A DNA stretch of 32,731 nt from a bacterium (lineage in GTDB: Bacteria; Planctomycetota; Phycisphaerae; UBA1845): the NCBI GenBank assembly GCA_024231775.1, contig JAAEQG010000742.1:1-32731 (forward strand). The letters are read 5' to 3'. Shown in pieces: positions 1,715 to 18,797 of this stretch; positions within the stretch are counted from its first letter, which is position 1, and each line of letters starts with the position of its first letter. Made by a program: the position numbers and the translations under genes. The notes beneath the pieces were generated by a model that was not told the origin of the DNA, searched no databases, and worked only from the letters and a program-made list of their open reading frames with translations.

Positions 1715-1905
1715 CGAGCAGCCCCAACGGGGCGTCATAGATCAGCCCAGGGCAACGCCCTGGGTTCTCGTGATCGAGACAAACGCGAGCCCTGACGGGG
1801 CGGCATGGCTTTACTTCGCCCCTTCAGGGCTTACGTTGCTTCGGGCAATCCTGCCCCAGGGCGTTGCCCTGGGCTGTCATAGAGCGCCCTTTCAGGGCGA
1901 AGAAG
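1715..1905. repeat. inverted pair of interspersed hairpin repeats (CCCAGGGC/GCCCTGGG family)
   Basis: The gap between the permease and tryptophanase genes (1672-2096) holds two copies of one element in opposite orientation. Each is centred on a perfect hairpin. The first has arms CCCAGGGC and GCCCTGGG at 1746-1764 with loop AAC. The second has the same arms at 1854-1872 with loop GTT. Flanking bases also match after reverse-complementing, such as the 'agccctgacgggg' and 'agccctgaagggg' stretches. The rest of the gap, 1906-2096, shows only a ribosome-binding site (GGAG) before tnaA. Confidence 0.8.
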
Positions 1906-5316: not shown

Positions 5317-7164
5317 TTGCATAGCTTCCAGGACGTCAAGGAGCAGATCCGCCGGAGCGTCGATCTGGTGGACTTGGTGTCTGAGCATGTATCGCTCAGG
5401 CGCGCGGGGCGCAACCTCAAGGGCCTGTGCCCGTTCCACAAAGAGAAGACTCCTTCCTTTAACGTCCTTCCCGATCGACAGATTTTCAAGTGTTTCGGAT
5501 GTGGTGTGGGAGGCGATCTCTTCAAGTTCGTCCAGCTGACCGAGAACGTCGAGTTCGTGGATGCCCTGCGCATCCTGGCTGACCGCGTCGGGGTCGAGTT
5601 GGCTCCACCTCGGCCGTCGGCGCCGGGGGAGACGACGGTAGGTCGTGCGGACTTGTTGCGGGTCAACGAGTGGGCGACGCGTTGGTTTCGCGAGCAGTTG
5701 CTCGGCGCCGTGGGCGGCGAGGCGCGGGCCTACCTGGAGCGTCGCGGAGTGTCCGCGGAGATCAGCGAGAGGTTCCAGATCGGACTCGCTCCGGGTTCGG
5801 GCGAGTTGCAGGTTGCCGCCCGTCGCGCCGGTCTCAGTCAGGAGTTGCTGACCGCGACGGACTTGGTCCGCGCCGGGGACCACGGAGGAGTATACGAAAC
5901 GTTTCGCGATCGGCTGATGTTCCCGATCCGCGATGCGAGCAACCGGTGCATCGGGTTCGGCGGCAGGACGCTGTGCGATGCTCCGGCGAAGTACCTTAAT
6001 ACCGCGAGTAACGAGCTGTTCGACAAAGGACGCTGCCTCTATGGACTCCCGTTGGCTCGGGCAGCGATAACCGAACGTAGCGAGGTCATCGTCGTCGAGG
6101 GTTATACGGACTGCATCGCCTGTCACCAGCATGGTTTTGCCCACGCCGTCGCTACCTTGGGGACCGCCGCGACGGAGGAGCACATGCGTGCGCTCCGGCG
6201 CTACACGGACAGCGCGGTTCTGCTGTTCGATTCGGACGCTGCGGGACAGGCGGCTGCGGAGCGTGCTTTGGCGGTGGGTTTGCAGCAGAATCTGACCGTG
6301 CGGATCGCTCAGATCCCGGAGGGGGGCGATCCCGCGGATTACCTCCAGAGTACCGGACCTGGCGAGTTCACCGAGTTGTTGAAATCGGCTTCTGAGGCGC
6401 TAGGATTCATGTGGGAGCGCACCCGCGCCCGCTTCAACGGTCCGGAGGGAGGTTCGGCTCGCCGCCAGCCTGTGGTCGAGTTTATCGACCTTGTTGCGGA
6501 ACTGAGTCGATTCGGCGCCGTGGACGCCATTCAGAGGGGGATCATCATTCATCAGGTGGCCCGACTGCTGGTTTTGCCCGCGGAGGAGGTCTCCGCGCTG
6601 ATTACCCAGCGTGCCCGGCGTTTGCGGACCGGCGCTCAGCGCGCCTCCCAACCGGAGGAGGCGGTGGTTCAACCGCCCGCGCTCGACGCTCGCCAGCGGG
6701 TCCTGGTCAGCATGTTGGAGGTGCTCATCGGAGAACCGGGGTTATTCGGTTCGGTGGCTGAGGTGTTCCGCCCGGCGCAGTTTGCGGACCCAACGTATCG
6801 ACACATTGCGGAGGTCTTCGTGGAGATGGCGGGGCGGTACGGGGAATTCGACGTTGCGGAGCTGCTCTCCGCCCTGGAGTCTCCTACAGAGGCCCAATGG
6901 GTGACGGACATGGTGCTCCGCTCTGCCGCATATGATGACCCGGGCGCCACGCTCGTGGAGTTGCACGTTCGCTGGGAGCAGTTTGACGGTGTTCAGCGCG
7001 GTCGAGATGCTGCGGACAAGGTCCGCAAGCCCCCGTCGGGCGGGGGGCAGGACATTACGGAGGAAGAGGTCGACGCTTGCCTGGCGGCTGTGCAGCAGAG
7101 CTGTTCGCAGCACCACTTTTCGTCGGCGAAGGCGGCGGTAGGCGGCGAGGGCATCGGCAGATGA
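5317..7164 (+). CDS. dnaG: DNA primase
   Basis: Synthesises the RNA primers for replication at the fork together with the DnaB helicase. The 615-residue product begins with a CHC2-type zinc finger (C38, H41, C59, C62; GLCPFHKEKTPSF then FKCFGCGVGGDLF). The catalytic core follows, with YLERRGVSAEISERFQIGLA, RLMFPIRDASNRCIGFGGR and KYLNTASNELFDKG. Its TOPRIM site has E261 in VVEGYTD and D305/D307 in LLFDSDAAGQ, where most primases have D-G-D. The C-terminal domain (about 430-600) is the expected but poorly conserved helicase-binding part. The start is TTG, because an in-frame stop lies 18 bases upstream and no ATG or GTG is available; a purine-rich GGGG stretch is about 10 bases upstream. It is followed after 36 bases by rpoD, the classical primase-sigma pairing of the macromolecular-synthesis operon, here without rpsU. 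Confidence 0.95.
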   Translation: MHSFQDVKEQIRRSVDLVDLVSEHVSLRRAGRNLKGLCPFHKEKTPSFNVLPDRQIFKCFGCGVGGDLFKFVQLTENVEFVDALRILADRVGVELAPPRPSAPGETTVGRADLLRVNEWATRWFREQLLGAVGGEARAYLERRGVSAEISERFQIGLAPGSGELQVAARRAGLSQELLTATDLVRAGDHGGVYETFRDRLMFPIRDASNRCIGFGGRTLCDAPAKYLNTASNELFDKGRCLYGLPLARAAITERSEVIVVEGYTDCIACHQHGFAHAVATLGTAATEEHMRALRRYTDSAVLLFDSDAAGQAAAERALAVGLQQNLTVRIAQIPEGGDPADYLQSTGPGEFTELLKSASEALGFMWERTRARFNGPEGGSARRQPVVEFIDLVAELSRFGAVDAIQRGIIIHQVARLLVLPAEEVSALITQRARRLRTGAQRASQPEEAVVQPPALDARQRVLVSMLEVLIGEPGLFGSVAEVFRPAQFADPTYRHIAEVFVEMAGRYGEFDVAELLSALESPTEAQWVTDMVLRSAAYDDPGATLVELHVRWEQFDGVQRGRDAADKVRKPPSGGGQDITEEEVDACLAAVQQSCSQHHFSSAKAAVGGEGIGR

Positions 7165-7200
7165 TCGCCGCCTCTGCGGTTGTGGGCAGGTGGCGGAAGG

Positions 7201-8916
7201 ATGGAGGATCAAAAGTTGATCATGACCACGGAAAGTAATCCGGGCAATCCGATCGAGACTGCGATTGTCGAGTTGATACAGCTTGGGCAGAAGCGGGGCT
7301 ACCTCACCTGGGAAGAGCTGAACGAGGCTATCCCCGACGAGGCGGTCACCCCCGACCACCTGGATGCGATCCTGCTCCGTCTGGAGGAGCGCAAGATCGA
7401 CATGGTCGATGAGATCGAAGCCGAACGGCTGGAGGCCGGCAGGAAGTCCAAGAAGTCGAAGCGCGATGGGGACGGCAAGACAGATCCGCCCCGCACCGCT
7501 ACGGCGGACGAGGTTCCGGTACGCAGAATCGACGACCCCGTGCGGATGTACCTGACCCAGATGGGCGAGATCCCTCTGCTAACTCGCAAGGAAGAGATCC
7601 GCCTGGCCAAGAAGATCGAACTTACCCGCATGGCCTTCCGCCAGAAGGTGCTGGAGAACGACTACTGCGGGTCTCAGGCGGTGGACATTCTCCAACAGGT
7701 GCGCGACGGACGCCTGCCCTTCGACCGCACCATGAAGATCTCCACGTCCGAACAGGCCGCCAAAGCCACAGTGCTGGCCCGCATGATCGCCAACCTGCCG
7801 ACGGTCCGGGGTATGCTGGAACAGAACGAAGCGGACTGGAACAGCCTCCAGGGCGGCCGGGTGCCGGCGGCGGTCCGGCGCGAGACTGCCCTGCGTCTCA
7901 AGCAGCGCCGGCGAAAGATCTCCAAACTGCTCGAAGAGCTTTCCCTGCGCACCAGCCGGGTGCAGCCGCTCATGCGCAAGCTGATGAACCTCAACCTCAA
8001 GATGAGAGATCTGGAGCGGCGCCTCGTCGCCCAGAAGAAGCGCCAGACCGTAGCCGATGACGATCTGGCGGCGATGAAGGAAGAATGCCAAGGCATCCGT
8101 TCGCTGGTCCTGGAGGATAGCGACTCGCTGACCCGGCGTCTGACCGGTATCCAGCGGGTCTTCGGCGAGTACGAGGACTCCAAGCGCAAGCTCTCCGGCG
8201 GGAATCTGCGCCTGGTGGTGAGCATCGCCAAGAAATACCGCAACCGTGGCCTGAGCTTCCTGGACATTATCCAGGAGGGGAATACCGGATTGATGCGGGC
8301 GGTCGATAAGTACGAGTACAAGCGCGGATACAAGTTCAGCACATACGCGACTTGGTGGATTCGCCAGGCCATCACCCGGGCCATCGCCGACCATGCCCGC
8401 ACCATTCGCATTCCGGTACACATGATCGAGACCATGAGCCGCCTGCGCAACATCAGCAAGCAGTTGCTCCAGGAACTCGGCCGAGAAGCCACCATCGAGG
8501 AAATCGCCACCCGCGCGTCCATGCCGGTCAGCGAAGCCCGCCGGGTGCTCAAGATCAGTCGCCAACCCATCTCCCTCGATCGTCCCGTGGGCGAAAGCGA
8601 AGACTCCTACTTCGGCGACTTCATCGAAGACGAGGCGGCGGAGTCTCCCATCAGCACTGCCGGCGGGGGTATGCTCTCCGAACGCATTGAGGAGGTCCTC
8701 AAGACCCTGACGTACCGCGAGCGCGAAATCATCAAGCTCCGTTACGGAATCGGAGACGGATACACCTACACCCTCGAAGAAGTCGGAAAGATCTTCAAGG
8801 TCACCCGGGAACGGGTCCGCCAGGTGGAAGCCAAAGCCATTCGCAAACTTCAACATCCGGTGCGGGCGCGCAAGCTGGAAGGCTTCCTGGACGTCCTCGC
8901 CCAAGCTAGTCAGTAG
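7201..8916 (+). CDS. rpoD: primary RNA polymerase sigma factor (sigma70)
   Basis: The housekeeping sigma factor that directs RNA polymerase to -35/-10 promoters. From the ATG at 7201 the product has 571 residues. Region 1.1 comes first ([20 protein letters not shown]), then a basic linker, region 1.2 ([21 protein letters not shown]), and a long helical non-conserved region of about 230 residues. Region 2 contains [39 protein letters not shown] and [19 protein letters not shown]. Regions 3 and 4 follow, ending with [12 protein letters not shown] and [26 protein letters not shown], 7 bases upstream, supports this start; an ATG at 7222 is a possible alternative. Consensus-like TTGACG/TATACT and TTGGTC/TAAAAT promoters in the window are what this factor would read. 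It is co-transcribed with dnaG. Confidence 0.96.
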
Positions 8917-15145: not shown

Positions 15146-15967
15146 CTATCCAACGCCGTCGGCCAGCCCTTCGACGAACTGGGCTACGGATTCGACGATG
15201 GCGTCGCGGGGTTGGCCGGCATCCAGGGCATCGGTGATTCGGCGTACGATGGCGCTGCCGACGATGGCGCCGTCGGCAACCGTACACACCTGACGAACGT
15301 GCTCGGCGGTGCCGATCCCGAAGCCCACGCAGACCGGTAGGCTGCTGACCGCGCGCAGGTGCTCCACGCGGGTCCGCAGATCGTGGGGCAGCTCGTCGCG
15401 CTCTCCGGTGATGCCCCGGGTTGACACCAGGTAGACGAACCCGGAACTGCGCCGGGCGATCTCCTCCGCCCGGGCGGCTGGGGTGGTGGGGGCGACCAGC
15501 ATGACGTGCCGCAGCTGGTGGGCCGCGGCGGAGGCGCCAAGGTCAGACGATTCTTCATAGGGGATGTCCGGGATAATCAGTCCGTCGAACCCGGCGTCCG
15601 CCGCCCGGTGTACGAATGCTTCCGTCCCCACGCGCCGGACGATCGAGAACGACACCATCGCTACGAGGGCGGCTTGCACCTGAGACCGCAGTGCCGCCAC
15701 CATCTCGAAGAGCTGCTCGGTCTTCTGACCGCCCTCCAGGACACGATAGAACGAGTCTTGGATCACCGGGCCGTCGGCGATGGAGTCTGAGTAAGGGAAC
15801 CCGATTTCCACCGCCGCGACTCCACGCCGATCGAATCGGCGGATCCACTCCGCAGTGGCGTCGAGGTCGGGATAGCCCCCGGTCAGATAGGGCATCAAGG
15901 CACCATGGCCGGCGGCAGCCGTCAGGCGAAGGTCGATTCGATTAGCGCCGTTTGCTTCGGTTGACAT
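15146..15967 (-). CDS. trpA: tryptophan synthase alpha chain
   Basis: Cleaves indole-3-glycerol phosphate to indole and glyceraldehyde-3-phosphate, channelling indole to TrpB. The 273-residue TIM barrel has the catalytic pair E54 (AAVEIGFPYSD) and D65 (IADGPVIQ), spaced as Glu49/Asp60 in the Salmonella enzyme. FDGLIIPDIPYEES, the phosphate-binding end GFGIGTAEHVRQV and GAIVGSAIV are also present. The usual PFSDP is PYSDS here. The gene is solitary: trpB is not adjacent and trpD lies 10 kb away on the same strand, so trp genes are dispersed in this genome. With tryptophanase nearby the cell both makes and degrades tryptophan. Confidence 0.95.
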   Translation of the reverse strand: MSTEANGANRIDLRLTAAAGHGALMPYLTGGYPDLDATAEWIRRFDRRGVAAVEIGFPYSDSIADGPVIQDSFYRVLEGGQKTEQLFEMVAALRSQVQAALVAMVSFSIVRRVGTEAFVHRAADAGFDGLIIPDIPYEESSDLGASAAAHQLRHVMLVAPTTPAARAEEIARRSSGFVYLVSTRGITGERDELPHDLRTRVEHLRAVSSLPVCVGFGIGTAEHVRQVCTVADGAIVGSAIVRRITDALDAGQPRDAIVESVAQFVEGLADGVG

Positions 15968-16192
15968 GGGCGCAGACTATACCTCGGGTCAAGAAAAAAA
16001 TCTTCACAATGTGGCAATCGGCGGGCCATGCCGCCACCGCACCCCAGGGAAGATCATAACATCCTTGTTCAACGGGGGTAGCGCGCCACCGCCCCGACGT
16101 CTCCGACGCTCGGTGATCGGGCACTATTCGGATCGCCTCCGGCACACACTTTGCGGGGGCCATCAATACTTGCGCAAGAAATATATTTCGCT

Positions 16193-16221
16193 TTGGTCAG
16201 CGTGTTGGTCGATGGTAAAAT
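16193..16221 (+). promoter_or_regulatory. sigma70-type promoter of the structured RNA
   Basis: TTGGTC at 16193-16198 and TAAAAT at 16216-16221 are separated by 17 bases. The predicted start, about 16228, coincides exactly with the first base of the RNA's closing stem. The preceding stretch 15968-16192 shows no gene. Confidence 0.7.
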
Positions 16222-16227
16222 GCGGTA

Positions 16228-16433
16228 GCCCAATGAAGATTCTGCCATGCTCGTCAGGGAGAACACATTGGTTGAGCCGTAGAGCGAACCCAGGGAGATC
16301 GTTGACACGGCGCTGAACGACGTACCGACTCGATAGGGTCGGCGGTCCGAGCGGCTGGCGGTCACCCACCTATAAGCGAGGTTCGACAATCCTCTCCCAA
16401 CGGCATTGCGGTGGTCTCTTCACCACATTGGGC
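16228..16433 (+). ncRNA. ssrS: structured autonomous RNA, probably 6S RNA
   Basis: A 206-base unit whose two ends are perfectly complementary (GCCCAATG at 16228-16235 with CATTGGGC at 16426-16433). Pairing continues inward with small bulges: CTGC/GCGG, ATGC/GCAT, GGGAGA/TCTCCC (16257-16262 with 16393-16398), ATT/AAT, and GTTGAGCC (16271-16278) with GGTTCGAC (16380-16387). I count about 36 pairs in one long irregular closing stem. Beyond it lie an open region with a possible 3'-side hairpin (ACCT/AGGT near 16367-16382, competing with the stem end) and a terminal domain with hairpins such as CCGAC/GTCGG at 16324-16341. A promoter ends 6 bases before it and a terminator follows, so it is a free-standing gene. 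Length, rod shape and the CACCCACCT...AGGTTCG...CGGCAT pattern fit 6S RNA, which binds the sigma70 holoenzyme. It lacks primase-operon, SRP, RNase P or tmRNA hallmarks. The structure is clear; the family name is inference. Confidence 0.6.
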
Positions 16434-16441
16434 GATCTGAG

Positions 16442-16479
16442 GCGGGCTTACCGTTTTAACGGATAAAGCCCGCTTTTTT
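16442..16479 (+). terminator. rho-independent terminator of the structured RNA
   Basis: The stem GCGGGCTT (16442-16449) pairs with AAGCCCGC (16466-16473) and is capped by a second stem, CCGTT/AACGG. It is followed directly by six T at 16474-16479. It is the only textbook terminator I see in the window. Confidence 0.9.
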
Positions 16480-16643
16480 AACGGTTCTCTTCCCGAGAAG
16501 TTAGTGGATCCGGCGAGGGCGAAGCCCTGGCGGGAGGCCCAGGCTCCGATGGGGCAGAATGAACGTGCTACCCGAGCTTCGACGGTGGGTGATTAAGACC
16601 CTGCGGACCGGGCAGGTGGCACACCCGCCCGGTCCGTCGAAGT

Positions 16644-16744
16644 GCATCGCCCCGGAGGGGCGCATGGCTGTAGCCAGGGGTGAAGCGCAGCGCAACCCCT
16701 GGAAACTGAACCACCCAACGCACCCGCCCCGGCAGGGGTGGTGG
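16644..16744 (+). repeat. interspersed repeat with CCAGGGGT/ACCCCTGG hairpin, copy 1
   Basis: An element of about 100 bases beginning near 'gcatcgccccggagg' and ending 'ggcaggggtggtgga'. Its central hairpin has arms at 16674-16681 and 16695-16702 around a loop containing 'gaagcgcagcg'. A second copy lies at 26567-26707. It occupies part of the gene-free stretch 16480-17268, which is a patchwork of repeats with no credible coding frame. Confidence 0.8.
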
Positions 16745-17268: not shown

Positions 17269-18708
17269 TCAGAACTGGCCCCAGAGGTACTGGTTGGTCA
17301 CCTCATGGTGGAACATGACCTCGCCGCGTTTCACCAACGCCCCCAACTCGCGCGGGCAGCGGTCGGCGGAGCGCTGCTTGGCATCGAGCAGACGCGACTG
17401 CACGTCTTCGCCCAGCAGCTCGGTTACCCAGCGGCTGCCTTTGAACAGGCGAAGCGCGTCGTAGATGTTGCCCGGTAGGAACCGGGTGCGCGGCCGTTTT
17501 TCCTCATCCACCTGGTCCGGTCGGGGACCTTCGAGCCCGGTGCGGAGCAGGGAGTATATCAACAGGTACGGGTTGGCGTCCGGGCCCACTGAGCGCACCT
17601 CGATGCGCGCCGTGCGCTGGTTGGCCAGGGGGATTCGCACCATCGCCGCCCGGTTCACCGCGGAGACTTTGATCTGGTTGGGGGCTTCAAACTCGGGGTC
17701 CAGCCGGCGATACCCGTTCACGCTGGAGTTGAGCACCAGGCAGATGTCCGGAGCGCTGTGCAGGATGCGGTCGATGAACTCCCAAGCCGTCCCGGACAGT
17801 CCGTCACGACCGTCGGCTTCGTAGAAGATGTTCTTCTCCCCGCGCTCCAGCGAGATGTTGGTGTGCATGCCGCAACCGTTGATGCCCGCGACCGGTTTGG
17901 GCAGGAAGCTGGCAGTCATCCCCAACCGCTGAGCCACCTGGCGACAGAGCAGTTTGTAGAGCTGGATCTGGTCGGCGGTGATACACGCCTCGGCGTAGGA
18001 GAAGTTCATCTCGAACTGCGAAGGGGCGACCTCCGGGTGGTCCTTCTCGTTTCCGAAGCCCATGGCCCGCTGCACCTCGGCGGCGGCGTCCATGAACTGA
18101 CGCAGCGGGTCCTGCGGAAGCGAGTGATAGTAACCCCCGGTGGAGATGAACTCGAAGCAGCCGGTTTCGTGGTAGCGCCGCTCGGCGTCCGGACCTTTGA
18201 ACAGAAACCCCTCGATCTCCGGGGCGACGTAAGCGGTCGTCCCGTCGTGTTTGTGCATCCGGTCGGCGTAGCGGTGCAGGAGTGATCGGAAGTCTCCGGG
18301 GTACGGAGAATCGTCGCGGTTGCGGACCTCGGCGAAGACCACGACCTTGCCCGGGCCGAACACGTCGGCGGGTAGCCAGTAGAACGCCGGCCAATCGATG
18401 GATAGCTTGAGGTCGGACTCAGCCTGAACCGCGAACCCGCGGATCGATGACCCGTCGAAGGTCAGATTGTCCGCAGATCGAAGGAGGAAGTTCTTGTCGT
18501 AGTCCAACATGTGCAGGCGACCCTCGACGTCCGAGAAGCACACCGTAACCGCCTTGATTCGCTTCTCGTCCGCCAAGTAGCGGCGACGCTCCTCCTCGAC
18601 CTCGGCGGGGTCCGCGCGCTCAGCCCGCTGCCTCTTGGCGGCCAGGTTTCGGTCTTCCAGCTCCGCGTAGGACAGCTCCAGAAAGTCTCTCAACCCAGGA
18701 CTGCTCAT
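17269..18708 (-). CDS. glnA: glutamine synthetase, type I
   Basis: ATP-dependent ligation of ammonia to glutamate, the entry step of nitrogen assimilation; the enzyme is a dodecamer in the cytoplasm. From the ATG at 18708 (GGAG 7 bases upstream) the product is 479 residues. The family landmarks are present: LTFDGSSIRGF in the beta-grasp domain, the metal-site Glu in YVAPEIEGFLF, QFEMNFSYAEA, the ATP/ammonium region KPVAGINGCGMHTNIS, and NQRTARIEVRSVGPDANPYL. The C-terminal part carries GNIYDALRLFKGS, whose Tyr aligns with the residue adenylylated in many type I enzymes; whether it is modified here is unknown. An upstream ATG at 18768 is less likely because a promoter lies in that interval. 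No nitrogen-regulation genes (glnB, glnE) are adjacent. Confidence 0.94.
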   Translation of the reverse strand: MSSPGLRDFLELSYAELEDRNLAAKRQRAERADPAEVEEERRRYLADEKRIKAVTVCFSDVEGRLHMLDYDKNFLLRSADNLTFDGSSIRGFAVQAESDLKLSIDWPAFYWLPADVFGPGKVVVFAEVRNRDDSPYPGDFRSLLHRYADRMHKHDGTTAYVAPEIEGFLFKGPDAERRYHETGCFEFISTGGYYHSLPQDPLRQFMDAAAEVQRAMGFGNEKDHPEVAPSQFEMNFSYAEACITADQIQLYKLLCRQVAQRLGMTASFLPKPVAGINGCGMHTNISLERGEKNIFYEADGRDGLSGTAWEFIDRILHSAPDICLVLNSSVNGYRRLDPEFEAPNQIKVSAVNRAAMVRIPLANQRTARIEVRSVGPDANPYLLIYSLLRTGLEGPRPDQVDEEKRPRTRFLPGNIYDALRLFKGSRWVTELLGEDVQSRLLDAKQRSADRCPRELGALVKRGEVMFHHEVTNQYLWGQF

Positions 18709-18767
18709 ATCACTGCTCCGTGTCGTTATGTTCGATCTCGCATCTGTATCACTCCAGCGTGTTCCCA

Positions 18768-18797
18768 TCTATACGGCCAATCTGCAACAAGAATCAA
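18768..18797 (-). promoter_or_regulatory. candidate glnA promoter
   Basis: On the minus strand, TTGATT (18797-18792) and TATAGA (18773-18768) are separated by 18 bases. This would give a leader of roughly 50 bases before the ATG at 18708. It lies in an AT-richer patch of the otherwise GC-rich gap 18709-19233, in which I see no other element with confidence. Confidence 0.45.

Follow-up and report, generated by a model that had tools for sequence, protein, structure and literature searches.

The locus at 16228-16433 of a planctomycete contig (JAAEQG010000742.1; "the window" hereafter means the whole stretch analysed, 32,731 nt) is best explained as a single-copy 6S RNA (ssrS) gene, a reading to which we give a probability of about 93% and in which the RNA would occupy the RNA polymerase holoenzyme and be released by pRNA synthesis through collapse of its central bubble. 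By mimicking an open promoter, 6S RNA parks RNA polymerase and thereby acts as a global brake on transcription. The 6S sequence also appears to carry a built-in switch for polymerase release, a proposal that is evolutionarily supported and agrees with modelled folding. The features of the locus and its surroundings are collected in Table 1.

Table 1. Features of the putative 6S RNA gene and neighbouring genes, in positions of the window
Feature	Positions	Strand	Remarks
dnaG	5317-7164		followed by the sigma factor gene
Primary sigma factor gene (rpoD)	7180-8916		sigma-70 regions 1.1 to 4
trpA	15146-15967	-	upstream of 6S, divergent
Promoter	16193-16221	+	weak -35, then extended -10 TGG-TAAAAT (16213-16221)
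Predicted 6S RNA transcript	16228-16433	+	206 nt; start 7 nt past -10; ends pair; contains the RF00013 match
End-closing helix, 5′ strand GCCCAATG	16228-16235	+	pairs with 16426-16433
Rfam RF00013 (6S/SsrS) match	16236-16418	+	model positions 1-187 (full length)
Putative pRNA template	16267-16280	+	start U16280 (CCGU); predicted pRNA 5′-ACGGCUCAACCAAU
Helix P2, 5′ strand GTTGAGCC	16271-16278	+	beside the central bubble; pairs with 16380-16387
5′-bubble strand CGAACC of alternative helix	16285-16290	+	pairs with 16380-16385; from covariation and constrained folding
Apical hairpin CCGAC...GTCGG	16325-16342	+	all five pairs altered on both sides in relatives
Conserved ACCCACC	16364-16370	+	far edge of central bubble; near invariant across planctomycetes
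Shared 3′ strand GGTTCGAC	16380-16387	+	P2 partner in the free state; GGTTCG pairs with the second GAACC copy when collapsed
End-closing helix, 3′ strand CATTGGGC	16426-16433	+	pairs with 16228-16235
Intrinsic terminator, hairpin and T tract	16439-16479	+	hairpin 16439-16476; -22.3 kcal/mol, z -5.44
glnA	17269-18768	-	downstream of 6S, convergent

The initial annotation had proposed 6S RNA for this unit, and comparison with covariance models bears the proposal out: the 6S model RF00013 matches over its full length and above its gathering score, and no other Rfam family reaches threshold over the 206-nt unit, the next matches lying outside it or far below threshold. Because this single score is only marginally over the gathering score (47.0 versus 46.4 bits), the weight of the identification has been placed on the homologues. 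The genome contains one 6S copy, and the window also encodes the class of partner that 6S RNA needs, in the form of a primary sigma factor that has region 1.1.

The gene is free-standing, with its own promoter and terminator and a length of about 200 nt, as for 6S RNA (RF00013). Of the 17-spaced promoter described at the outset, the -10 element stands, inspection of the sequence placing TAAAAT at 16216-16221 with TGG directly 5′ of it at 16213-16215. The -35 hexamer belonging to that spacing, TTGGTC (16193-16198), is weak, with three of six positions agreeing with the consensus, and is bettered by TGGTCA (16194-16199, spacer 16), with four of six. When both strands are scanned from 15950 to 16700, this is the sole promoter-like site (0.2 expected). 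GCTTTGG is common to both same-genus copies at the promoter position, and a TGN-TANNNN element lies 12-19 nt 5′ of the 6S core in most relatives.

At the transcript termini, the two end strands form a perfect 8-bp closure. Among 30 relatives the end sequences vary yet still pair, cognate partners giving a helix score of 19.2 versus 13.2 for mismatched partners (0 of 5000 permutations), and this maintenance of the end helix supports the boundaries of the 206-base unit as first drawn. With a folding energy of -83.7 kcal/mol (z -2.69), the unit is equalled by none of 200 shuffles. The terminator is likewise upheld and had been overlooked by a simple terminator scan because its stem is interrupted; most relatives' 6S copies also have a hairpin and T run on the 3′ side.

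The absence of covariation in the closing stem had been named as grounds for abandoning the 6S reading, and the covariation found in homologues speaks strongly for it. In A4, an alignment of 32 sequences that, like A5, was fitted to the covariance model, which favours the model, 90.2% of cells hold standard pairs versus 79.8% with shuffled partners, and double changes occur in 23 pairs and 126 cells versus 36.9 in shuffles, none of 500 shuffles matching the observed value on any of five measures. Sliding the partners by 1-3 columns reduced pairing to 55% or less. The phylum-wide set of 58 sequences behaves in the same way, with 89.1% paired, 307 double-change cells versus 104, and again 0 of 500 shuffles on all five measures. 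Compensatory pairs are already present in a MAFFT alignment built without structure; RNAalifold found only 24 pairs on it, and the structure was therefore set by hand and then checked. The rod that RF00013 requires, with a central bubble between its closing and apical stems, is thus maintained through compensatory change, while the GARCC-GGUUC core of helix P2 is almost invariant and 99.4% paired in the 32 sequences.

Next to P2, the 5′ strand of the bubble carries GARCCG(A)U, a motif that is near-universal among the copies aligned across the phylum and whose position we take to be that of U44, the pRNA start of E. coli 6S RNA. Judged from sequence, pRNA synthesis would begin at U16280. A second copy of GAACC lies a few bases past the first (seven in the window), and, since both face a single GGUUC on the 3′ side, the two helices that they can form are mutually exclusive. 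The distal part of the 5′ bubble can thus pair with the 3′ strand of P2 to the exclusion of P2, which places the RNA in the collapse-helix subtype. In the 32 sequences the alternative helix is 90.2% paired, with a covariation of 0.285 versus 0.134 in shuffles (0 of 500) and 22 double-change cells versus 8.1. Its core being nearly invariant, this covariation derives mainly from two edge pairs. One of them, columns 54-175, is standard in 27 of 32 sequences and occurs as five types (U-A, A-U, C-G, G-U and G-C); the corresponding extension of P2 forms in only 19 of the 32.

Partition-function folding of 30 sequences, in which 14 nt at the pRNA template were forced open by hand with polymerase absent from the model, is consistent with such a switch. 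In the free RNAs, GGUUC is held by P2 in 27 of 30; with the template blocked, it moves to the second copy with a probability above 0.5 in 24 of 30 (0.90 for the window), versus a mean of 0.07 and 0 of 30 above 0.5 in a control with a shuffled 5′ bubble. No switch was seen in six of the 30 (L005, L006, L015, L019, L022 and L026). The window's template-blocked fold is the collapse helix and not the release hairpin of the E. coli type.

A working cycle can be proposed from these elements. When nucleotides are scarce, the rod with its open centre would mimic an open promoter and occupy the housekeeping sigma-70 holoenzyme, as expected from family membership. Once growth resumes, the polymerase would use the RNA as template, from U16280 leftwards, for a short pRNA, whose synthesis would unzip P2 by drawing GAGCC (16274-16278) off GGUUC (16380-16384). 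The freed GGUUCG could then pair with CGAACC of the second copy (16285-16290), upon which the central bubble would collapse and the RNA would leave the polymerase.

The RNA resembles E. coli SsrS and RF00013 in its full-length model match, its rod with a central bubble, the GARCCGAU start and a P2 of the GARCC-GGUUC type. Release of E. coli 6S RNA involves a 9-bp hairpin within the 3′ side of the bubble (PMC8876501), whereas here the alternative partner of GGUUC sits on the 5′ side. A closer parallel is provided by B. subtilis 6S-1 and Aquifex aeolicus 6S RNA, for which a central bubble collapse helix has been inferred (PMC8876501) and in which the distal 5′ bubble likewise pairs with the 3′ strand of P2. 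They differ from the present RNA in that here a near-repeat, GAACC...GAACC, faces one GGUUC and the support comes from covariation and not from probing. A role of the alternative helix in release is proposed by analogy with the B. subtilis work. In Isosphaeraceae and relatives (L093, L071, L123, L089 and L137), the 6S alignment core measures about 143-150 nt versus about 170 elsewhere; the missing part is the apical arm, and most of these short forms retain AACCCG in the bubble opposite CGGGTT. The length of the Isosphaeraceae copies, about 145 nt, suggests naturally occurring versions in which the outer arm is shortened; they invite comparison with the truncated 6S-1 RNAs, which still cycle in vitro (PMC8876501).

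The rival that we take most seriously accepts a 6S RNA and has it leave the polymerase without a bubble-collapse helix, the second GAACC being kept for polymerase contact or otherwise. The near invariance of the helix core and the six sequences that fail to switch in silico are what this account would lead one to expect; the edge pairs, which covary over five pair types and outdo the competing P2 extension, argue against it, and we regard it as unlikely while leaving it real weight. Much less probable is an Ms1-like RNA, with the same rod shape, that binds core RNA polymerase without a sigma factor and makes no pRNA. Ms1 is structurally related to 6S RNA, which it replaces in Actinobacteria (PMC9130861), and it shares the rod, the large central bubble and, by analogy for the RNA described here, polymerase binding. 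The full-length match, however, is to the 6S model, and the conserved pRNA start GAACCG(A)U and switchable P2 strand are needed only by an RNA that serves as template; these features all fit a 6S-type template, in contrast to the core-binding Ms1. Moreover, Ms1 has been reported from Actinobacteria only, and the host here is a planctomycete.

It is slightly less probable still, and very improbable in itself, that the unit is some other trans- or cis-acting small RNA of convergent 6S likeness, for instance a regulator of divergent trpA or convergent glnA. The gene does lie between these two, and divergent trpA stands beside the RNA in three relatives as well (trpA adjoins 6S in G000, G001, G009 and G010). 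However, the RNA has a promoter and terminator of its own, and it persists where the neighbours differ even within the genus: the third same-genus copy (L023) lacks an adjoining trpA and is flanked by gidB and a SpoIIE-like gene. The 6S RNA gene is thus retained as the preferred reading. A linkage between 6S and rpoD was also considered and rejected, since the two share the 33-kb window and are far apart in complete relatives, so that no conserved cluster is formed.

Two matches to Acido-Lenti-1 (RF01687), inverted to each other, lie elsewhere in the window, at 1720-1764 (-) and 1855-1899 (+). Across the genome there are 75 such matches, 22 neighbouring pairs of which are inverted with a spacing of 134-136 bp, and a Y1 transposase (PF01797) gene (C62:16359-16697) is found about 330 bp from one copy. 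Acido-Lenti-1 here looks like a mobile palindrome of the REPIN/RAYT type rather than an RNA gene. GC-rich palindromes also occupy 16501-16700, 3′ of the 6S terminator; among them, a copy at 16648-16700 resembles Acido-Lenti-1 but scores below threshold (19 bits).

The gene is widespread among planctomycetes. In a search of 60 relatives, RF00013 gave matches at E ≤ 0.001 in 35 and over the gathering threshold in 20; a model built from 30 of the 60 (R1) found 6S RNA in 55, with one copy each. A further model (R2) detected it in 63 of 80 near-complete genomes of Phycisphaerae, the class being assigned by NCBI titles, and a second planctomycete class, the one that includes Paludisphaera soli, has it in 76 of 100 genomes. 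Named isolates with the gene are Singulisphaera sp. GP187, Paludisphaera soli, Tautonia sociabilis and Planctomycetes bacterium Pan216. Across the phylum, a search of 394 genomes gave 129 hits, an underestimate because only about seven candidates were scored per genome. In the second class, 11 of 12 genomes of family f63 and two of three of f66 gave no match, nor did any genome sampled from f77, f78 or f82; twelve match-less genomes searched again with more candidates and with RF00013 yielded nothing better than E 0.087. Outside this survey, a three-part pattern of planctomycete 6S RNA (CCCACYT, GGTTC and CGGCATTRCGG) also finds 6S-like loci (L061, L075, L094, L131 and others), with Nitrospinaceae, Caldilineaceae, Methylophaga and Paenibacillus among the carriers; of 80 loci, almost all match model R1.

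The initial annotation was right that 6S RNA is poorly documented in planctomycetes: in the literature searched, only PMC5673643 treats the subject, and it states, citing Wehner 2014, that the RNA is missing in Pirellula staleyi, Rhodopirellula baltica and Thermogutta. This published absence fits the 6S-less families if those families are the relatives of Pirellula, and the absence cases are atypical, most sampled genomes of two classes carrying the gene. On balance we favour the view that the duplicated GAACC has been selected as a two-state switch and that 6S RNA was lost in only a few families, the reported absence reflecting the genomes first examined. Two points are new with respect to the literature searched, namely that the RNA occurs widely in planctomycetes and that covariation supports a collapse switch there; Rfam or RefSeq may already list some of the copies.

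Planctomycetes are often slow-growing bacteria. 6S RNA, common among them yet absent in definable families, offers natural comparisons between lineages with and without it. For a release mechanism that has until now been deduced from A. aeolicus and, by probing and mutants, from B. subtilis, the covarying alternative helix adds evidence of a comparative kind.
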